Shown: in pieces, positions 2,158-17,933 of the stretch
How positions within the stretch are numbered: the first letter of the stretch is position 1
Layout of the letters: every line of letters begins with the position of its first letter
Source of the DNA: a virus
Strand: one strand, 5' to 3'
DNA: 64,000 nt
IMG/VR virus record: IMGVR_UViG_3300034061_005432
Span: 1 to 64,000 of that record
Program-made: the position numbers and the translations under genes
Notes under the pieces: model-generated
What the model saw: the letters and a program-made list of their open reading frames with translations, nothing else
Told to the model about the DNA's origin: nothing
Databases searched by the model: none

Positions 2158-4194
2158 TTATTTTTTTCTTTTAATTGGTTTTTTTATTTTAACATCAGTT
2201 TTCTTTTCCTTCTCGTTATAAGTAAGAACAAACTTTGATCCTTTTTCTGGGTTATCTGTAAGGATTTTTTCAGTGATTGCATCATCAATCCATTTCTGTA
2301 CGGTTCTTTTAAGTATTCTAGCCCCAAAACGAGTATCCATTCCGACTTCTATTAGATGTTTTTTTAGTGTCTCATCGACATCTACAGAAAACTCTAACTT
2401 AGAAATTCTTTCGTAGAATTTATTAAGTTCTAAATCAACAATTTTTAACAAATCCTCTTTATTAAGGTCTTTGAAATAAACTATATCATCAAATCTATTG
2501 ATAAACTCAGGCGGGAATTTTTTGAATAGCTCTTTTTCCAAAAGTGTTTTGATCTCATCGTCTTTTCTTTCAGTTTTTGCCGTTGTTGAAAAACCGACAC
2601 CCGTCCCAAAATCTTGTACAACCTTAGTTCCCACATTAGAAGTCATTAGAATAATACAATTTTTAAAATTTATTTTTCTCCCATGACCGTCTGTTAACAT
2701 ACCCTCATCCAACATCTGTAAAAAAACATTGAATATATCGGAATGTGCCTTTTCTATTTCATCTAATAGAATTACAGAGTATGGCTTGTTTTTGATTTTA
2801 TTCAAAAATGGTGAGCCCTCTTCAAACCCCACATAACCTGGTGATGTTCCCGTCAATTTGGATGTTGAAATTTTATCTGAAAACTCACTCATGTCTAAAC
2901 GGATTAAAGCGTCTTCACTGTTAAACATATGTTTTGCCAATTGTTTTGCGAGTTCTGTTTTCCCGACTCCCGAATTACCAATTAACAGACCACTGAAAAT
3001 AGGTTTTTTCGGATCGTTTAAACCAACTTTATTTCTCTGAATTGCCCTTGCTATTTTACTTACAGCATCATCCTGACCAATAACTTTTGTGTTCAAATTT
3101 TCTTTTAAAGAAATAAGTTGTTGTGTTTCATCTGTAGATATTTTATTCACAGGAATTTTTGTCATTAAAGAAACTACATCATAAACGACATCTTCAGTCA
3201 CTTCTCTTTTAAACATGTCACGATTCTTTTCGAATTTTTGTTTCTCATTTTCTAATTCGGCAAGAACTTTTCTTTCTTTGTCTCGTAAATTAGCCGCCTC
3301 CTCATACTTTTGTTTGTTGATGACATCTAACTTTTCTTCTTTGATTTTCAAAGCTTCTTTTTTCAAGTCCTCAATAATTTCAGGAAGTTTTACTTCCACT
3401 TGAGATCTTGCCCCAACCTCATCAATAATATCAAATGCCTTATCTGGAAATTCACGATCAGTAATATATCTATCGGCTAACTCCACACAAAGTTTCATAA
3501 TATCATCACTATAAATTACTTTGTGGTAATTTTCATAACTTTCTTTGGATTGTTGAAGAATTAGTAATGTTTCTTCTTTTGTTGATGCGTCAACAATAAC
3601 TTTTTGGAATCTTCTTTCTAATGCCCCATCCTTCTCAATATTTTTTCTGTATTCGTCTAAAGTTGTCGCCCCAATACATTGAAGTTCCCCTCTTGAAAGT
3701 GCGGGTTTAAATATGTTTGACGCATCCATAGAACCTGATGAATTACCAGCACCAATCATAGTATGTATTTCATCAATAAAAATTATAATATCGGGATTTC
3801 CATATAATTCTTCCATTATAACCTTCATCCTCTCTTCAAACTGACCTCTATATTTTGTCCCTGCCACAACTGATGTCATATCTAACGATACTATTCTTTT
3901 GTTTGCTAAATTTTGAGGACAATCACCTTCAAAAATCTTTTTTGCAAGTCCCTCAACAATTGCAGTTTTACCACAACCCGGTTCCCCTAAAATAATTGGA
4001 TTGTTTTTCTTTCTCCTTGATAAAATTTGAGCAATCCTATTGATCTCGTTTTCTCTCCCTATCACAGGGTCCAACTTCCCTTCTTCTGCCGCCTTAATTA
4101 GATCTCTTGAGAAATTATCTAATACGGGGGTTTTTGAGGAACTATCTTTAGGTTTGTTTTTTGGTTTTTCGTTTTCGTCTACGGATTCTATCAT
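2158..4194 (-). CDS. clpC-like: ClpC-like AAA+ ATPase lacking the N-terminal domain
   Basis: Two-AAA+ Hsp100 unfoldase of 678 residues. AAA1 has Walker A GEPGCGKT (K76; the family usually has Val where this has Cys) and Walker B FIDEIHT (D141-E142). A short middle region carries a UVR-like helix ([13 protein letters not shown]). AAA2 has Walker A GNSGVGKT (near 411), Walker [10 protein letters not shown] and the sensor region MTSNVG. The roughly 150-residue Clp_N domain is absent: AAA1 starts after only about 25 residues. A VGF tripeptide at 533-535 occupies the place of the ClpP-docking loop of ClpC/ClpA, so coupling to host ClpP is possible. ClpB-type disaggregases lack this loop. Its promoter is of host type, suggesting early expression. 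Confidence 0.85.
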
Positions 4195-8079: not shown

Positions 8080-9855
8080 ATGTCGTTATCGAAAGAACAA
8101 ATATTATTAGAGTATGCTAAGTGTGTAAATGATACACCTTACGCCTTAAAAACATATTTACAAACTTACGACAACACACAGTCCAAATATGTTCCATTAG
8201 AACTTTTTAATGATCAGGTTACACTTGTTAAAGATTATGACGAGTGTGAAGAAAATATCGCACTTAAATACCGACAAGCCGGTGTTTCAACCGTTACATC
8301 CGCATGGGCATCTAAAAGGTTAGTATTTGCTAAAAAATCAAAACCAGAAAAAATATTGATTATTGCAAATAAAATGGACACCGCTGTAGAGATGGCAAAT
8401 AAAGTGAGAGCTTTTGTTGAACAGTGGCCAAATTGGTTAGGTGTAACATTCTCTAACGAAAAAAATTCACAAAGACATTTTAAATTAACTAACGGATGTG
8501 AAGTAAAGGCAGTTGCAACATCTAAGGATGCTTTGCGTGGGTATACACCTACGATCTTAATCTTTGATGAGGCAGCATATATTAATGCGGACGAAGATTT
8601 CTGGTCAGCGTGTATGGCATCCCTATCTACAGGAGGTAAAGTTATAGTAATATCAACACCAAATGGATTTGATCCAATATATTATTCAATTTACAGTCAG
8701 GCGATAAAAGGAATGAATGACTTTAAAATAACAGAAATGTATTGGTTTCGAGATCCTAGATATTCTAAGGATCTGAAATTAATTAAGTGTGATGATATTG
8801 TTCACTATATGTTGAATAGGGCGGATTATAATGATTCTGAAATCATACTAGACTATACTGAAGTCAAAGTAATTAATAGAGACTTTGAAGAAATAAAGGA
8901 AAAAATTAATAAAGGTTACAAACCGTATAGTTCTTGGTTTGAGGCTATGGCCAAAAAGTTAAAGTTTGACAAAAGAAAAATTTCTCAAGAATTAGAATGT
9001 AATTTTTTAGGTTCGGGTGACAATGTTATCCCACCTGAAACGATGAAAAAAATAAAAGAAAACCACATCCAAGAACCTGTTAATAAATTTATGGGAGGTG
9101 CACTTTGGCAATGGAAAGAACCTATTGTTGGTCATAAATATATTATGGGTGTCGATGTATCAAGAGGAGATAGTGAAGATTTTAGTACTATATCAATCAT
9201 TGATTTTGACTCAAGAGAACAAGTTTTAGAATATATTGGAAAAATCCCACCCGATGTTTTAGCAGAAATTGCTTTCAAGTGGGGAACTATGTATGGTTCC
9301 CTTATCGTGACTGATATAACAGGAGGGATGGGAGTGTCAACATCAAGAAAATTACAAGAACTTGGATATAAAAATTTATATGTTGATGGGGTAAACCCTG
9401 CAGATAAATGGAAGTGGGACCCAAAGGCTAATGATAAAATTCCTGGTATTAATTTTAACGCAAAACGAGTTCTAATTATTCAATCATTTGAGGAAGCTTT
9501 AAGGTATGATTTTGTTGTCAGATCACAAAGGTTATTTAATGAATTGAATACATTCGTTTATGTAAACGGTAGACCTGATCACCAAAAAGGACAACATGAT
9601 GACTTGATAATGTCATTTGCAATAGCAATTTATGTTGCTGAAACATCTTTTGCCCAATTAGAAAAAGTAACAGAACAAACAAAGGCAATGTTAGATTCTT
9701 GGTCAGTAGAAAGTAATACTTATCATAAAGAGTATACAAGTTTTAATCCAAGTTTACCAGTATCACAGAGAGATCAAACAGGATATCAGAGAAACACGGT
9801 CACTAAAAGTGATTATGAAAAGTATTTATGGTTATTCAGTGGTAAAAGGGTTTAG
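8080..9855 (+). CDS. terminase large subunit (gp17-like)
   Basis: DNA-packaging motor ATPase/nuclease of 591 residues. ATPase domain: Walker A-like YRQAGVST (64-71), Walker B ILIFDEAAY (D163-E164), coupling motif ISTPNG (191-196). RNase H-type nuclease domain: D359 in GVDVSRGD, D412 in VTDITGG and D507-D508 in GQHDDLIM give the acidic metal-binding set. Length is close to T4 gp17 (610). It cuts concatemeric DNA and drives it through the portal, whose gene follows 37 bp downstream. No small terminase is seen beside it. Confidence 0.95.
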   Translation: MSLSKEQILLEYAKCVNDTPYALKTYLQTYDNTQSKYVPLELFNDQVTLVKDYDECEENIALKYRQAGVSTVTSAWASKRLVFAKKSKPEKILIIANKMDTAVEMANKVRAFVEQWPNWLGVTFSNEKNSQRHFKLTNGCEVKAVATSKDALRGYTPTILIFDEAAYINADEDFWSACMASLSTGGKVIVISTPNGFDPIYYSIYSQAIKGMNDFKITEMYWFRDPRYSKDLKLIKCDDIVHYMLNRADYNDSEIILDYTEVKVINRDFEEIKEKINKGYKPYSSWFEAMAKKLKFDKRKISQELECNFLGSGDNVIPPETMKKIKENHIQEPVNKFMGGALWQWKEPIVGHKYIMGVDVSRGDSEDFSTISIIDFDSREQVLEYIGKIPPDVLAEIAFKWGTMYGSLIVTDITGGMGVSTSRKLQELGYKNLYVDGVNPADKWKWDPKANDKIPGINFNAKRVLIIQSFEEALRYDFVVRSQRLFNELNTFVYVNGRPDHQKGQHDDLIMSFAIAIYVAETSFAQLEKVTEQTKAMLDSWSVESNTYHKEYTSFNPSLPVSQRDQTGYQRNTVTKSDYEKYLWLFSGKRV

Positions 9856-9892: not shown

Positions 9893-11713
9893 ATGTCAGA
9901 ACAAAAATTAACGGTGTGGCAAAGATTGAGTAGGACTTTTGGTCCTAATGCAACCCTTGACCAACAATCTCCCGTATTCAAATTTGATAAAAAGGAGCTA
10001 TTAAAGACAACAGATAAATCTGAGTTTGAAAAAGAAAAATTACAATCTCAGCAGACAATGTATATCGGCCAACAATGGCAAAAAGTAGAAAATAATTTAT
10101 ACCAACAAGCGGTATATTATGAACCAACAAGAATGGCGTCATACTATGATTATGAATCTATGGAATATACACCTGAAATTTCTGCGGCATTAGACATTTA
10201 TTCTGAAGAATCCACAACACCAGATCAAGATGGACTTATATTAAAAGTTTATTCTGAATCAAAAAGAATAAAATCAGTATTAATCGATCTTTTTGTTAAT
10301 AAATTGGATATTAACACCAACTTACCAATGTGGACAAGAAACACATGTAAGTTTGGTGACAACTTTGTATATCTTAAGTTAGATCCTGAAAATGGTATTG
10401 TTGGATGTCAACAACTACCAAACATTCAAATCGAAAGATTAGAAAAAGGGATGAGGTTTCAACCTGATAAGTACTCACAAGAAATGGAAAACGACGCTTT
10501 GAAGTTTACTTGGAAGGAAAAAAACATGGAGTTCAATACTTGGGAAGTAGCACACTTTAGAATTTTAGGTGACGATAGAAAACTACCGTATGGTACATCG
10601 ATGCTCGAAAAGGCTCGTAGAATTTGGAAACAATTATTACTTTCTGAAGATGCGATGTTAATCTATCGTGTATCTAGAGCACCTGAAAGAAGAGTATTTA
10701 AAGTATTTGTCGGTAACATGGACGACAAAGATGTTGACCCATATGTACAAAGAGTTGCTAATAAATTTAAAAGAGATCAAATTGTTGATCACTCAACAGG
10801 TAATGTCGATATGAGGTATAATCAAATGGCGGTAGACCAAGATTATTTCATTCCTGTTCGTGATCCGGCAGCAACCAACCCTATTGAAACATTACCAGGT
10901 GGTACGAACTTAGCTGAAATCGCAGACATTGAGTATATTCAAAAGAAATTAGTTACAGCTCTTAGAATACCTAAGGCTTATTTAGGATTCGAAGAGGCGG
11001 TAGGTGATGGTAAAAATTTATCATTATTAGATATTCGTTTTGCGAGAACTATCAATAGAATTCAAAAGTCTATGATTGCAGAATTAAATAAAATTGCAAT
11101 TATTCATCTTTTTTTATTAGGTTTTGAAGACGAATTAACAAACTTCACATTAGGTTTACACAATCCATCTAAACAATCTGAATTACTTTCAATCGAACTA
11201 TGGAAGGAAAAAATACTTCTGTATAAAGATGCAGTTACACCTATCGCAGACACAGTAGCCCCTGTTTCAGCGTCTTGGGCTAAAAAACATATCTTAGGGT
11301 TCTCAGATGAAGAAATAAGATTAGATATACAACAACAAAGGGTAGAAAGGGCAGTGGCTGCAGAACTTGTAAAAACTGCTGAGAGTATACCTAAAACCGG
11401 ACTTTTTGATACTATAGACCAACTTTACGGTAAAAAAGATGGTGAAGCAACACCTGAAGGAGGTGCGGCACCTGAAGGAGGTGATATGGATATGGGAGGT
11501 GGAGATTTAGGCGGAGGAGCCCCACCACCACCTGAAGGCTCACCATCACCTGAACCTGGAGGGGTAACACCTGAAAGTTTTAATAAAGATGGATTAGATT
11601 TAATATTGGAAGATTTGTCATTATTTAATTCTGCAGATGTTATAGAATTATCTAAAGGAAGAAACTCGTTGATTGAAATAGATGAAAGAGTTAAATCTTT
11701 ATTGAATAAGTAA
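9893..11713 (+). CDS. portal vertex protein (gp20-like)
   Basis: 606 residues, T4-type portal: the N-terminal part with ALDIYSEESTTPDQDGLILK and TRNTCKFGDNFVYLKLDPE, and the central WEVAHFRILGDDRKLPYGTS are the recognisable blocks. It forms the dodecameric ring at one head vertex, the docking site for terminase and neck. The C-terminus carries an unusual Gly/Pro/Glu-rich segment (about 520-560, repeated PEGG units) not seen in T4 gp20, followed by a short helical tail. The start follows AAGAAAAAAATT, with no SD. Confidence 0.95.
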   Translation: MSEQKLTVWQRLSRTFGPNATLDQQSPVFKFDKKELLKTTDKSEFEKEKLQSQQTMYIGQQWQKVENNLYQQAVYYEPTRMASYYDYESMEYTPEISAALDIYSEESTTPDQDGLILKVYSESKRIKSVLIDLFVNKLDINTNLPMWTRNTCKFGDNFVYLKLDPENGIVGCQQLPNIQIERLEKGMRFQPDKYSQEMENDALKFTWKEKNMEFNTWEVAHFRILGDDRKLPYGTSMLEKARRIWKQLLLSEDAMLIYRVSRAPERRVFKVFVGNMDDKDVDPYVQRVANKFKRDQIVDHSTGNVDMRYNQMAVDQDYFIPVRDPAATNPIETLPGGTNLAEIADIEYIQKKLVTALRIPKAYLGFEEAVGDGKNLSLLDIRFARTINRIQKSMIAELNKIAIIHLFLLGFEDELTNFTLGLHNPSKQSELLSIELWKEKILLYKDAVTPIADTVAPVSASWAKKHILGFSDEEIRLDIQQQRVERAVAAELVKTAESIPKTGLFDTIDQLYGKKDGEATPEGGAAPEGGDMDMGGGDLGGGAPPPPEGSPSPEPGGVTPESFNKDGLDLILEDLSLFNSADVIELSKGRNSLIEIDERVKSLLNK

Positions 11714-11732: not shown

Positions 11733-12464
11733 ATGAACACTTTTGGCACTATAAAAACAAAAATAGAAAAAGCATCTATCGGTTTATACGGAAAACCTGA
11801 ATTTAAATCTTTTTTGAAACAATTTAAATCAATGGTTTTAGAAAACAAAGACATTGCTGAGTTATATTATATCTACGATGATTTATCTTCTAACAAGGGT
11901 ATTAATGAATCTATCGCCGAAGATTACATAAATGAAACTGTTGAGTATTCTCAAATTTTAGTTGAAGGTAATTCAAAACATATTACAAAGGTAAGTAATT
12001 GGATTGATTCTATTGTATTGGAACATACTAATGAATACAAGGATATTGATAATACGATATATAAGAAATCAATCAAAGACCTATCCACGGTTTTAGAATC
12101 TAAAAGAAAAATTAAGTCTAATATTATTTTAGAAGAAAAGAAAGAAGATATAATAGAAAGCGTTAACTTACCAATTTCAACAATGGTTAAGGTTGCTGAA
12201 GAAAATATTAAATTAGAATTAAAAAATATTTCAGAATCAGAAAGAAAAGTTATAGAGGAGTTGTCATCTATGTCGGATGAAGAAATCAAAACCGAAATGG
12301 ACCAACTTAAAGAAAATGTTATTTCTAATTTGAAATCTACTTTGAACGAATCGACAGAATCTGATTTAAAATCAACAATAGAAAATACAATCAAAAAAAT
12401 TAATGAATCACCTTATGATAGATTCAATCTTTATAAGTTGAGGGGTTTAAGTCAAGGATTATGA
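11733..12464 (+). CDS. helical structural-module protein, unknown
   Basis: 243 residues, highly charged and almost wholly helical with likely coiled coil (about 130-235). Genes directly after a T4-like portal often encode prohead core components, so an internal head or core role is plausible, but there is no sequence match I can name. Own late motif upstream; overlaps the next gene by 4 bp (ATGA). Confidence 0.5.
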   Translation: MNTFGTIKTKIEKASIGLYGKPEFKSFLKQFKSMVLENKDIAELYYIYDDLSSNKGINESIAEDYINETVEYSQILVEGNSKHITKVSNWIDSIVLEHTNEYKDIDNTIYKKSIKDLSTVLESKRKIKSNIILEEKKEDIIESVNLPISTMVKVAEENIKLELKNISESERKVIEELSSMSDEEIKTEMDQLKENVISNLKSTLNESTESDLKSTIENTIKKINESPYDRFNLYKLRGLSQGL

Positions 12465-12697
12465 TTAGGTTTTTTAAATCAATGATGGAAGGGGCAAATG
12501 GGGGGATTTCCTCTAAAAGGTTTATTGGTCTTCTTTGTGGATTATCCCTAATTGTAGGATTATTTATATCTATGTTTAGTTGTGGAAAATACGAACCATC
12601 ATCAACTTTGGTGGATGCTGTAGGTCTGTTGGCCTTTGGGTGTTTAGGTTTGACTTCAGTCGATTTCTTTACACACAAAAAAGGTGACAACAAATAA
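12461..12697 (+). CDS. small two-helix membrane protein, holin-like
   Basis: 78 residues with two predicted transmembrane helices: about 19-40 (FIGLLCGLSLIVGLFISMFS) and 52-71 (LVDAVGLLAFGCLGLTSVDF), a short loop between, and a basic C-terminal tail (HKKGDNK). The SSKRF-IGLL lead-in followed by two helices resembles small holin-like proteins of Bacteroidetes phages. It may equally be a membrane-anchored accessory protein. The ATG overlaps the preceding stop. Its end abuts the convergent bS21 gene with no spacer. Confidence 0.5.
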   Translation: MIRFFKSMMEGANGGISSKRFIGLLCGLSLIVGLFISMFSCGKYEPSSTLVDAVGLLAFGCLGLTSVDFFTHKKGDNK

Positions 12698-12880
12698 CTA
12701 GTTATTCTTTTTTTGTAAATAAGCTGCCTTTTTCTTCTGGTCTCTTTTTGAAACTGAAGGTTTCGTAAACTCCTGTAATTCCCTCAACCTTTCGATTTGT
12801 TTTGTTTTATACACTTTAAATTTATATTGTTTAAGTGCTTGCTCAATAGAGTTAGGGTTTTTTACTGGTACTATAATCAT
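12698..12880 (-). CDS. rpsU: ribosomal protein bS21, Bacteroidetes type
   Basis: 60 residues covering the whole bS21 family pattern: N-terminal MIIVPVKNPNSIEQALKQYK, then KTKQ-x-x-x-LRELQEFTKPSVSKR and a basic Lys-rich tail. The FTKPSV-x-KR block and a Tyr at position 54 are features of Bacteroidetes bS21, in which the protein helps hold the 16S anti-SD tail in a pocket with bS6 and bS18. A phage copy could enter host 30S subunits and shift which mRNAs are translated. It lies alone on the minus strand inside the head module, behind a late motif and a perfect SD, unlike every neighbour. Confidence 0.92.
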   Translation of the reverse strand: MIIVPVKNPNSIEQALKQYKFKVYKTKQIERLRELQEFTKPSVSKRDQKKKAAYLQKKNN

Positions 12881-12888
12881 ATTTTTTT

Positions 12889-12897
12889 CCTCCTTTT
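12889..12897 (-). promoter_or_regulatory. strong Shine-Dalgarno sequence of rpsU
   Basis: On the minus strand AAAAGGAGG is followed by 8 nt (AAAAAAAT) and the ATG at 12880. I found no other start codon in the window with a comparable SD. In Flavobacterium the rpsU mRNA is a known exception that keeps a strong SD, proposed to allow autoregulation by bS21 occupancy. Confidence 0.9.
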
Positions 12898-12899
12898 GA

Positions 12900-12907
12900 T
12901 ATAAATA
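12900..12907 (-). promoter_or_regulatory. late-promoter motif TATTTATA for rpsU
   Basis: TATTTATA on the minus strand, 19 nt before the ATG. A start site 5-7 nt downstream would place the mRNA 5' end at or within the SD, so the SD itself would lie at the extreme 5' end. Confidence 0.55.
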
Positions 12908-12987
12908 TACAAGATTTTTCGATTTTTGACAACGATGTTTATTTTTATTATAATTGTATAAAACAAATAAACTTTAAGTTATGAAGA

Positions 12988-13437
12988 ATGAAAAAAGGAA
13001 AAACATCGAAATTAAATGTTTTTGATGATGCTAAATGTTACTATGGTACGGTAGATTCAAAAGAAATGAAATCCATATACATAGTACTACAGACATGGAT
13101 CCAACCATCAGATGATTATGATAATTGGGAAAAAATAACAGGTCATATTAAAAGACAAATACAACACACATTATTAGAAGTATTAGACTTCACATTCTTC
13201 GAAAAGAAACAAATAGTCGACTTAGACTTGAGAACAAGTGGGATACAAAAAGGTAAAAAGAGTTTTTTAAATTTAGAGATTACACTTTTCATTCATAATA
13301 AATTTGTAGAATTCAAATCACTTATTTTAAGAAATAAAATCAAAACACTATTAACTGCAATATACACTGACGATTTAAAAAATTGTAAGTTTTTTACACT
13401 TAATAAAACAAAAAATCCAGAAATGGTTATTTCCTAA
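12988..13437 (+). CDS. hypothetical protein between portal and prohead protease
   Basis: 149 residues, mixed alpha/beta, basic. No domain recognised. The chosen ATG (12988) competes with an ATG at 12981 in another frame that opens only a 14-codon peptide. The gene sits where T4-like genomes place small head-assembly factors, which suggests but does not prove such a role. No exact TATTTATA precedes it. Confidence 0.5.
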   Translation: MKKGKTSKLNVFDDAKCYYGTVDSKEMKSIYIVLQTWIQPSDDYDNWEKITGHIKRQIQHTLLEVLDFTFFEKKQIVDLDLRTSGIQKGKKSFLNLEITLFIHNKFVEFKSLILRNKIKTLLTAIYTDDLKNCKFFTLNKTKNPEMVIS

Positions 13438-13460: not shown

Positions 13461-14168
13461 ATGAAAATTTTAGGACCGAATGATAGTGGTAAAGGAATAC
13501 TTGTAGAATGGGATGCTGGATTCATCAATCCAAATGATGAGAGAAATACCGATATAATAAAAGAATCTTACGGACAGTTAGAACACTCAAAACCTTTTGT
13601 GTTCTATGCGACATTACAAAAACACGGAGTACCTAACAGAAACGGTAGGGTTTATCCTGAAAACATATTAAGAAGAGAGGCTGATAAGTATAAAGAACTT
13701 ATTAATAAAGGGATGTCGATTTCTGAATTAAACCATCCTGAGTCTTCATTAATTGACTTAGATAGAGTATCACATCTTATTACTGACATATGGTGGGAAA
13801 ACAATGTTTTAATGGGTAAGATTAAATTATTAACCACTCCAGGTTTTCACGAAAGAGGTATAGTGTCATCCAAAGGAGATGTTGCAGCAAACATGATGAG
13901 ACAGGGTGTTACTATGGGTGTATCTTCTCGTGGTGTTGGTTCTTTGGTAAAAAAAGGTGAGCAAAATGAAGTACAGGATGATTTTGAATTAATTTGTTTT
14001 GATCTTGTTTCTTCACCGTCAACGCCAGGAGCTTACCTTTACTTAAACAAGGAAGACCGACCAAAGTATGAAGAAAAACTTGCCGAACATGATAAAAGTA
14101 ATTTTTCAGGTAGTGGTTTAGAGAAATCTGTTGACTTAATGAAAAGATTGACCGATTATTTAAAATAA
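13461..14168 (+). CDS. prohead core scaffold protease (gp21-like)
   Basis: 235 residues, T4 gp21 family serine protease. Catalytic elements: H92 in SELNHPES, Ser in GVSSRGVG (155/156) and D181 in CFDLVSSPS, in the His-Ser-Asp order of the family. Within the prohead it cleaves scaffold and capsid proteins after Glu in I/L-x-E contexts before DNA entry. IIKE-S near residues 32-36 is a possible self-processing site. It lies two genes upstream of the scaffold and three of the capsid gene. Confidence 0.93.
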   Translation: MKILGPNDSGKGILVEWDAGFINPNDERNTDIIKESYGQLEHSKPFVFYATLQKHGVPNRNGRVYPENILRREADKYKELINKGMSISELNHPESSLIDLDRVSHLITDIWWENNVLMGKIKLLTTPGFHERGIVSSKGDVAANMMRQGVTMGVSSRGVGSLVKKGEQNEVQDDFELICFDLVSSPSTPGAYLYLNKEDRPKYEEKLAEHDKSNFSGSGLEKSVDLMKRLTDYLK

Positions 14169-16106: not shown

Positions 16107-17933
16107 ATGGGAGCATTATTAGAATCAGGTCTTGTTGGTAACATCGGGTTGAAACACCTTAAAGTTATCAAAGAAGATACAATTAACAAATGGGATAAAT
16201 TAGGATTCCTAGATGGTCTTAAAGGACACATTAAAGAGAACATGGCTCAATTATATGAGAACCAAGCATCTCACCTTATTAACGAAGCGGCTTCAACTGA
16301 TAGCTCAGGTTCATTCGAAACTGTAGTTTTCCCTATCGTAAGACGCGTATTCTCTAAATTGTTAGCTAATGATTTAGTATCTGTACAAGCAATGAACTTA
16401 CCTATCGGTAAATTGTTCTACTTTGTACCTAAAATCCAAGGTTACCAAGCGGCAGCTAATAACCAAATACAACACTTTCCACCACTTGGTTCACCCGCTA
16501 CTTTAGTAGGTGATGCTACTGCAACTCAAGGACAAGGTTACGGATCAACTAGTACATACGGTGGTACTAACTTGTATGACTTATTCTATGAAGGAAATGA
16601 GCCAGGATTAGATCCTGCAGGTTTATTTGACTATTCAAAAGGAGCTTATACGGCAATTACTTCAAGTGCTGTTGGCACTGTAGTTTGGAATGGTTACAAT
16701 TTAGTGTCTTCTGGTTATTCAGCAGGTGAGTACAGAAAAGTATTAATCGGTTTATCAGGTTTCTCTAATGCGGGTGCTGGTAAATTAATTGGACCTGATG
16801 GTCAGGAAATGGATAATGAAGCATTCTTATCTGACTTACAAGTAAATGCTGTACAAGCGGGTGTTAATGGTTTCTCAGGTTTAGGTACTAGTGATATTCT
16901 TTTCAGAGTTGTTACTCAAAAATATGGTAAAGGTATTGTACAATATGGTACACAAGCAAATACAACTTGGTCATCTACAGGTAACGGAGGTTCTTATGAT
17001 AACCTTTGTTCACAAGATGGTATCATCTATTTAGAGTTGGATCTACAAGTTCCTGCAACTATCGGTACAGGTTCAATTGACGGATATTCAGGGTTCACTT
17101 TACCAATTACTGGTCTTGCCACTGCAGGAGCTGCGTTTACATGTACATTCAGAAGATACAAAGAATTGGAATTCGAAGATGAGATCGGTGAAGTATCTTT
17201 TGACCTTGAGTCAGTTACTGTATCTGTTACAGAAAGAAAACTAAGAGCACAATGGTCTCCTGAATTAGCTCAAGATGTATCTGCATTCCACAATATCGAT
17301 GCTGAAGCTGAATTAACAGCTTTATTATCTGAGCAAGTGGCGGCAGAAATTGATCGTGAAATTCTTCGTGATTTGAGAAAAGGCGCAGCTTGGACACTTC
17401 GTTGGGATTACAACGGATGGAAAAGAGGTACTACTGCAAATCCATTAACTCAGTACACTCAAAAAGACTGGAACCAAACATTAATCACTGCGATTAACCA
17501 AATTTCGGCACAAATCCACAAATCTACTTTGAGAGGTGGAGCTAACTGGATCGTAGTTTCTTCTGAAATTTCAGCTATTTTTGATGACTTAGAATACTTC
17601 CATGTATCTAACGCTTCACCGGAGCAAGATCAATACAACATGGGTATTGAAAGAGTTGGTACATTAGCTGGTCGTTACCAAGTTTACCGTGATCCTTACT
17701 TCCCACCAAACACAGTATTGTTGGGTCACAAAGGAACATCATTGTTAGACACTGGTTATGTTTACGCACCGTATGTACCTCTACAATTAACACCTACAAT
17801 GTATAACCCATTCAACTTTACACCAATCAAAGGTATCATGACAAGATACGCTAAGAAAATGGTTAACAACCGTTTCTATGGTAGAATCACAGTTGATGGA
17901 GTTAGAACATTTGACTTAAGAGAATTGAGATAA
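16107..17933 (+). CDS. major capsid protein (gp23-like)
   Basis: 608 residues. The N-terminal SSGSFETVVFPIVRRVFSKL and ANDLVSVQAMNLPIGKLFYF are diagnostic blocks of T4-type capsid proteins; the C-terminal half keeps the HK97-fold pattern with TERKLRAQWSPELAQDVSAF. The sequence HLINE-AAS gives a gp21-type cleavage site after E60 (I-N-E before A), close to the T4 site at residue 65. At 608 residues it is longer than T4 gp23 (521), with the extra length in a Gly/Ser/Tyr-rich middle region (about 130-340). A strong terminator follows. Confidence 0.96.
   Translation: MGALLESGLVGNIGLKHLKVIKEDTINKWDKLGFLDGLKGHIKENMAQLYENQASHLINEAASTDSSGSFETVVFPIVRRVFSKLLANDLVSVQAMNLPIGKLFYFVPKIQGYQAAANNQIQHFPPLGSPATLVGDATATQGQGYGSTSTYGGTNLYDLFYEGNEPGLDPAGLFDYSKGAYTAITSSAVGTVVWNGYNLVSSGYSAGEYRKVLIGLSGFSNAGAGKLIGPDGQEMDNEAFLSDLQVNAVQAGVNGFSGLGTSDILFRVVTQKYGKGIVQYGTQANTTWSSTGNGGSYDNLCSQDGIIYLELDLQVPATIGTGSIDGYSGFTLPITGLATAGAAFTCTFRRYKELEFEDEIGEVSFDLESVTVSVTERKLRAQWSPELAQDVSAFHNIDAEAELTALLSEQVAAEIDREILRDLRKGAAWTLRWDYNGWKRGTTANPLTQYTQKDWNQTLITAINQISAQIHKSTLRGGANWIVVSSEISAIFDDLEYFHVSNASPEQDQYNMGIERVGTLAGRYQVYRDPYFPPNTVLLGHKGTSLLDTGYVYAPYVPLQLTPTMYNPFNFTPIKGIMTRYAKKMVNNRFYGRITVDGVRTFDLRELR

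Follow-up and report, generated by a model that had tools for sequence, protein, structure and literature searches.

In Bacteroidota, complete ribosomes hide the anti-Shine–Dalgarno (anti-SD) sequence behind bS21, bS18 and bS6, whereas ribosomes lacking bS21 expose it. McNutt et al. 2023 (PMC9976891) show that in F. johnsoniae ribosomes without bS21 start translation faster on the strong-SD rpsU mRNA and more slowly on SD-less mRNAs. The rpsU SD helices span 9–13 bp, and the criterion for an extended SD is set below −13 kcal/mol. The passages of that paper covered here make no mention of an SD on phage genes.

For bS21 encoded by other viruses, entry into host ribosomes is supposed (Mizuno et al. 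2019, PMC6375957; Al-Shayeb et al. 2020, PMC7162821), as it is here; unlike at the locus described below, the passages of those two papers covered here describe no SD specific to bS21. T4-like Bacteroidetes lake phages with predicted Bacteroidetes hosts (Chen et al. 2022, PMC9723584) resemble the present phage in carrying an opposite-strand bS21 gene among the genes for the terminase large subunit (TerL), portal, prohead protease and major capsid protein (MCP), and in the product, a bS21 of Bacteroidota type whose residue 54 is aromatic. In contrast to the clade studied here, no SD on phage bS21 genes was reported by Chen et al. Our literature search, which had preprints and most subscription papers outside its scope, likewise yielded no description of an SD on a phage bS21 gene, and no paper within that scope connects the lake-phage gene to the host circuit by way of such an SD. 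Each component of the system has been described before; what appears to be new is the phage variant with an SD, together with its derived origin and recurrence.

A Bacteroidota-type bS21 gene in a conserved phage locus

The window, by which we mean the whole 64,000-nt stretch analysed, belongs to a viral record of 71,582 nt. A second record, of 166,385 nt, is 99.9% identical to the first across 71,569 nt, and is thus a longer assembly of this phage or of one almost identical to it. No tRNA genes were found in this 166-kb record. Features of the window are collected in Table 1.

Table 1. Features in and around the bS21 locus, with other elements of the window discussed in the text
Feature	Position	Strand	Remarks
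ORF adjoining the Clp-like gene	1060–2136	−	weak M42/M20 peptidase matches (E ~1e-5)
ClpA/ClpC-like double AAA+ unfoldase	2158–4194	−	678 aa; AAA_2 (E=2.8e-57), AAA_lid_9, ClpB_D2-small
Terminase large subunit	8080–9855	+	context gene
T4-type portal protein	9893–11713	+	context gene
Short imperfect direct repeats with ACACCTGAA/CACCTGAAGGAGG	11440–11575	+	3′ part of portal gene
Conserved 243-aa ORF	11733–12464	+	context gene; no assigned function
78-aa ORF	12461–12697	+	context; abuts the bS21 stop; found in some family members only
bS21 coding sequence	12698–12880	−	60 aa, Bacteroidota type (KPSV, Tyr54)
Shine–Dalgarno AAAAGGAGG	12889–12897	−	8-nt spacer (12881–12888) to ATG
−7/−10-like promoter element TATATTTATA	12900–12909	−	conserved upstream of the family's bS21 genes
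−33-like element TTGTCAAAA	12924–12932	−	20 nt from TTG to TATATTTA
Conserved 149-aa ORF	12988–13437	+	context gene; divergent from bS21
Prohead protease, peptidase S77	13461–14168	+	context gene
gp23-type major capsid protein	16107–17933	+	context gene

The 60-residue translation (MIIVPVKNPNSIEQALKQYKFKVYKTKQIERLRELQEFTKPSVSKRDQKKKAAYLQKKNN) matches Pfam PF01165 with E=1.2e-9 and 38.2 bits, above the curated cut-off of 27. Its best solved relative by sequence is bS21 of F. johnsoniae (7jil_z, E=1.6e-11), non-Bacteroidota chains giving 6e-4 or worse, and in the alignment to 7jil_z both Tyr54 and the KPSV segment of the host protein are retained. An initial annotation had described the gene as a complete, phage-encoded bS21 of Bacteroidota type with Tyr54, and the Pfam match and the alignment bear this out.

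Relatives were gathered as 80 related viral loci and 73 found from a divergent relative, the two sets overlapping. Wherever flanking genes are recognisable, these loci belong to the same phage group, and the gene order of the family is TerL, portal, 243-aa ORF, 78-aa ORF (in some members), bS21 on the opposite strand, 149-aa protein, prohead protease and MCP. The initial annotation had also considered that bS21 might be an acquired host gene. The constant opposite-strand position in this synteny speaks against it, as does the bS21 tree, in which the protein groups with phage bS21s and not with the sampled hosts; the gene is a long-resident phage gene. Recent acquisition of a host rpsU together with its leader is ruled out by synteny, trees and SD length. 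Among deposited phages, the portal–protease region found no DNA match and bS21 only distant ones. We infer a Bacteroidetes host from the bS21 type, the SD-poor genome and the host-type promoters.

The window also encodes a Clp-like unfoldase with an adjoining ORF (Table 1). McNutt et al. 2023 (PMC9976891) speculate on a phage protease acting on host bS21.

Predicted pairing of the bS21 leader with a Bacteroidota-type 16S tail

The full leader reads TTGTCAAAAATCGAAAAATCTTGTATATTTATATCAAAAGGAGGAAAAAAAT-ATG, with 8 nt separating GGAGG from the start codon. Eight base pairs of its SD (AAAGGAGG) are complementary to a CCUCCUUU 16S tail. Scored with ViennaRNA duplexfold against ACACCUCCUUUCU, a Bacteroidota 16S tail that is assumed and not taken from an identified host, the leader pairs at −12.2 kcal/mol; with a UCUCA-type tail, pairing would fail (−3.3 kcal/mol). 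Folding revealed no secondary structure of note that hides the SD, the leader being little structured. AAAGGAGG occurs a single time when both strands of the 64-kb window are counted. The SD at 8-nt spacing stands as first annotated, and so does the claim that bS21 alone in the window has a real SD. Several internal GGAGG sites of the window are explained by the direct repeats in the portal gene.

On the same scale, the SD-bearing host rpsU leaders that we sampled (L128, L130, L131, L132 and L146) pair at −18 to −21 kcal/mol, compared with 8 bp and −12.2 kcal/mol for the phage SD, all values coming from duplexfold and not from the free_scan of McNutt et al. Prevotella rpsU is without an SD.

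Upstream of the SD lies TATATTTATA, which resembles the sense-biased late-type motif of this phage; a late motif had been noted there in the initial annotation, and it is present. Upstream of genes, TATTTATA is sense-biased (20 versus 6), in keeping with a late-type motif. The distance of 20 nt between TTG and TATATTTA agrees with TTG-N18-21-TANNTTT, a pattern present in 33 of the 89 distinct bS21 leaders. In the promoter of bS21 the late-type TATTTATA occurs together with the conserved TTGTCAAAA, and among the 24 late-motif genes of the 166-kb record the two elements stand in register at bS21 alone. Since housekeeping promoters of Bacteroidota carry TTTG at −33 and TAnnTTTG at −7, bS21 may be open to the host polymerase in addition to being transcribed late. 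The earlier description of the gene as late stands only in part: such bS21 genes are transcribed at the late stage according to Chen et al. 2022 (PMC9723584), but here the late motif is joined to a host-type TTG −33 box. A start 5–7 nt after the motif would fall in the A-run. A transcript start at or in the SD is plausible, and pairing would then range from −12.2 kcal/mol (full SD) to −9.8 kcal/mol (AGGAGG only).

A candidate sensor of bS21-deficient ribosomes

Our best explanation, in which confidence and doubt are about equal, is that a convergently acquired SD lets bS21-deficient ribosomes favour the phage bS21 mRNA and so would make bS21 production self-limiting. Since complete ribosomes hide the anti-SD and bS21-less ones expose it, an SD placed on the bS21 message alone would work as a sensor of bS21-less ribosomes. 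Ribosomes short of bS21 would prefer the phage bS21 message, its product would fill the deficient ribosomes, and the repaired ribosomes would go back to SD-less phage messages while bS21 output drops. The SD-less majority of the family would make bS21 without such feedback. Besides the feedback itself, we infer for this explanation a canonical CCUCC anti-SD in the host, a transcript whose 5′ end includes the SD, and incorporation of the protein into host ribosomes; the gene, its SD, the uniqueness of that SD, its conservation in two diverged lineages, its derived origin and its recurrence in unrelated phages are shown by the data. In favour of the explanation we count the top rank of the bS21 SD in an SD-depleted genome, the unchanged SD letters of the two lineages, the excess of strong SDs on bS21 of other phages, the published host circuit with its response to an AGGAGGU leader, the retention of Tyr54 and KPSV, and the scarcity of structure in the leader.

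The phage shares with the rpsU autoregulation described by McNutt et al. 2023 (PMC9976891) an SD confined to the bS21 gene, an SD-poor genome and a bS21 that would hide the anti-SD. The host circuit with bS21 sensing, invoked in the initial annotation, is indeed published there, which makes a sensing role in the phage reasonable. The suggestion of the initial annotation that bS21 supply may favour phage mRNAs lacking an SD is in line with published in-vitro results.

The strength of the pairing bears on a plainer and rather unlikely reading, in which the SD raises bS21 translation somewhat through transiently free anti-SD and brings no meaningful feedback, because 8 bp would be too short for strong bS21 sensitivity. 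The stronger pairing of host rpsU leaders with an SD is consistent with it, as is the statement of McNutt et al. 2023 (PMC9976891) that an extended SD is required for stimulation by bS21-depleted ribosomes. However, in that work the product of a synthetic AGGAGGU leader was slightly reduced in the wild type and rose more than 2-fold in bS21 deltaC; a short strong SD is thus bS21-sensitive and no booster in complete ribosomes. An AGGA leader showed no response to bS21 mutation. Because the phage SD is longer than AGGAGGU but shorter than the host rpsU SDs, we favour a sensing role, which would be one of moderate gain.

SD usage across the genome and in unrelated phages

Genes of the 166-kb record were called mechanically (ATG starts, greedy by length), which yielded 162–164 genes, and the bS21 SD ranks first among them. 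The runner-up reaches −9.6 kcal/mol, has the core AAGGAG and is located beyond the stretch shared with the window's record. It belongs to a 282-aa ORF beginning MIETGKIINGDCVE, at 163980–164828 of the 166-kb record (region L156–L159). When any in-frame start was allowed, an SD core preceded only two genes, bS21 and this AAGGAG gene. The whole-genome scan suggested by the initial annotation, carried out over 166 kb, thus brings up one further SD-core gene. Mean leader pairing was −1.26 kcal/mol versus −2.27 kcal/mol in mock windows further upstream, placing SDs below background, and an SD as a general trait of the genome is ruled out over these 166 kb. Shuffled leaders reached −12.2 kcal/mol in 33 of 49,200 cases, or ~7e-4 per given leader, and the chance that some gene per genome does so is ~0.10. 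The single-genome evidence is suggestive, not decisive, and the case therefore rests on the identity of the gene, conservation in the sister lineage and recurrence elsewhere.

A search by alignment, aimed at more remote bS21s of phages, added 80 loci to the related ones, and clustering of all at 85% identity gave 54 clusters. A strong SD (dG below −12) was found in 4 of the 54 (the window clade, L251, L252 and L317), compared with none of the 556 other genes and one of the 556 mock windows in the same loci (Fisher 5.5e-5 for 4/54 versus 0/556), the clusters not all being independent in that L251–L254 may be one clade. Below −8, the counts were 8/54 for bS21 clusters versus 7/556 for other genes. 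Most clusters are without an SD, which rules it out as a general trait of phage bS21. In the bS21 tree, phage tips with an SD are spread over about five positions, 60-residue trees being weakly resolved.

SD-bearing contigs were chosen for the SD on bS21, so ranks within them illustrate rather than test. In two phages unrelated to the window phage, bS21 has the strongest SD on the contig: AAAAAGGAGGTAGAGTC-ATG ranks 1 of 129 (L317, IMGVR_UViG_3300012663_000707) and TTAGAGGAGGTATAA-ATG ranks 1 of 60 (L252, IMGVR_UViG_3300022555_000135). The bS21 SD is present without being the strongest on the L254 (second) and L263 (fifth) contigs, and in SD-less relatives bS21 ranks 54 (G003) and 39 (G004). 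AAAGGAGG also precedes the bS21 gene of a 735-kb phage record. In a 152-kb contig with the bS21 leader of that phage, the bS21 SD comes fifth behind four genes as strong, the top two of which look like overlapping coding sequence; because of these four, the 735-kb phage is a less clean second case than the L317 and L252 contigs. Several unrelated Bacteroidota phages may independently have re-evolved an SD solely on bS21, as a sensor-actuator that would refill bS21-deficient ribosomes, with most relatives SD-less and unregulated. This broader claim we hold tentatively, with somewhat more doubt than belief.

Origin of the SD within the phage family

Among the related loci, the SD is restricted to the window lineage and its sister lineage (L006–L012, 86–88% protein identity). 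Other family members have SD-less, A-rich bS21 leaders, except for one small group with a partial AAAAGG. An IMG/VR-wide scan for GGAGG before a MII-x-x-V-K/N start, a pattern that would miss bS21s beginning MLI, returned bS21 from those two lineages only. In a tree of the protease and the 149-aa protein, the SD clade (support 1.00) is nested inside SD-less phages, and parsimony counts one gain of the SD as against eight losses if it were ancestral. This reconstruction shows the SD of the window clade as a derived trait, probably gained secondarily in an otherwise SD-less family, which sets it apart from the host rpsU SD described by McNutt et al. 2023 (PMC9976891). The initial annotation had supposed that the phage "kept" the host circuit, a view not supported by these counts or by the lack of an SD in nearly all relatives of the same synteny.

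A neutral history, in which a few G's arose by chance in the A-rich leader of an ancestor shared by the two lineages and serve no function, is unlikely. The genome-wide chance of ~0.10 would allow for it; near relatives have A-rich leaders, that of L013 (AAAAAGAGAAA) being a few substitutions away from the SD, and leader conservation extends to parts outside the SD. Nevertheless, all nine SD letters are identical between the two lineages although their 4-fold sites are only 49–53% identical, SDs are otherwise depleted in these genomes, and bS21 has an SD in unrelated phages too. Very improbable is that the gene brought a host rpsU leader with it, which most phage lineages then lost. The frequency of extended SDs on host rpsU and the scatter of SD-bearing phage bS21s over several places of the bS21 tree are what it would lead one to expect, but it needs the eight losses in this family, and the phage SD is shorter than host SDs on a gene that is long resident in phages. 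Hardly credible is a decoy, in which abundant SD-bearing phage bS21 mRNA diverts bS21-less ribosomes from host rpsU and delays replacement of host bS21: by the published mechanism both messages would compete for the same exposed anti-SD, and McNutt et al. 2023 (PMC9976891) suggest that host autoregulation could counter bS21-swapping phages, but with an SD weaker than those of SD-bearing host rpsU leaders the competition would need a large mRNA excess.

Implications of an SD on phage bS21

Against the preferred explanation, a self-limiting bS21 supply that responds to bS21-deficient ribosomes, we count that the phage pairing is weaker than in SD-bearing host leaders, that most relatives do without an SD, that the transcript may start inside the SD, that such a leader has a ~10% genome-wide chance, and that an A-rich leader could also support ordinary SD-less initiation. 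If the explanation is true, these phages make use of a host circuit by which the composition of ribosomes is sensed, and two natural phage designs, one SD-bearing and one SD-less, exist at a single genomic site. The role of phage-encoded bS21 would then become directly testable by leader swaps in F. johnsoniae, and there would be independent evolutionary support for the view that Bacteroidota reserve SD pairing for supplying bS21.
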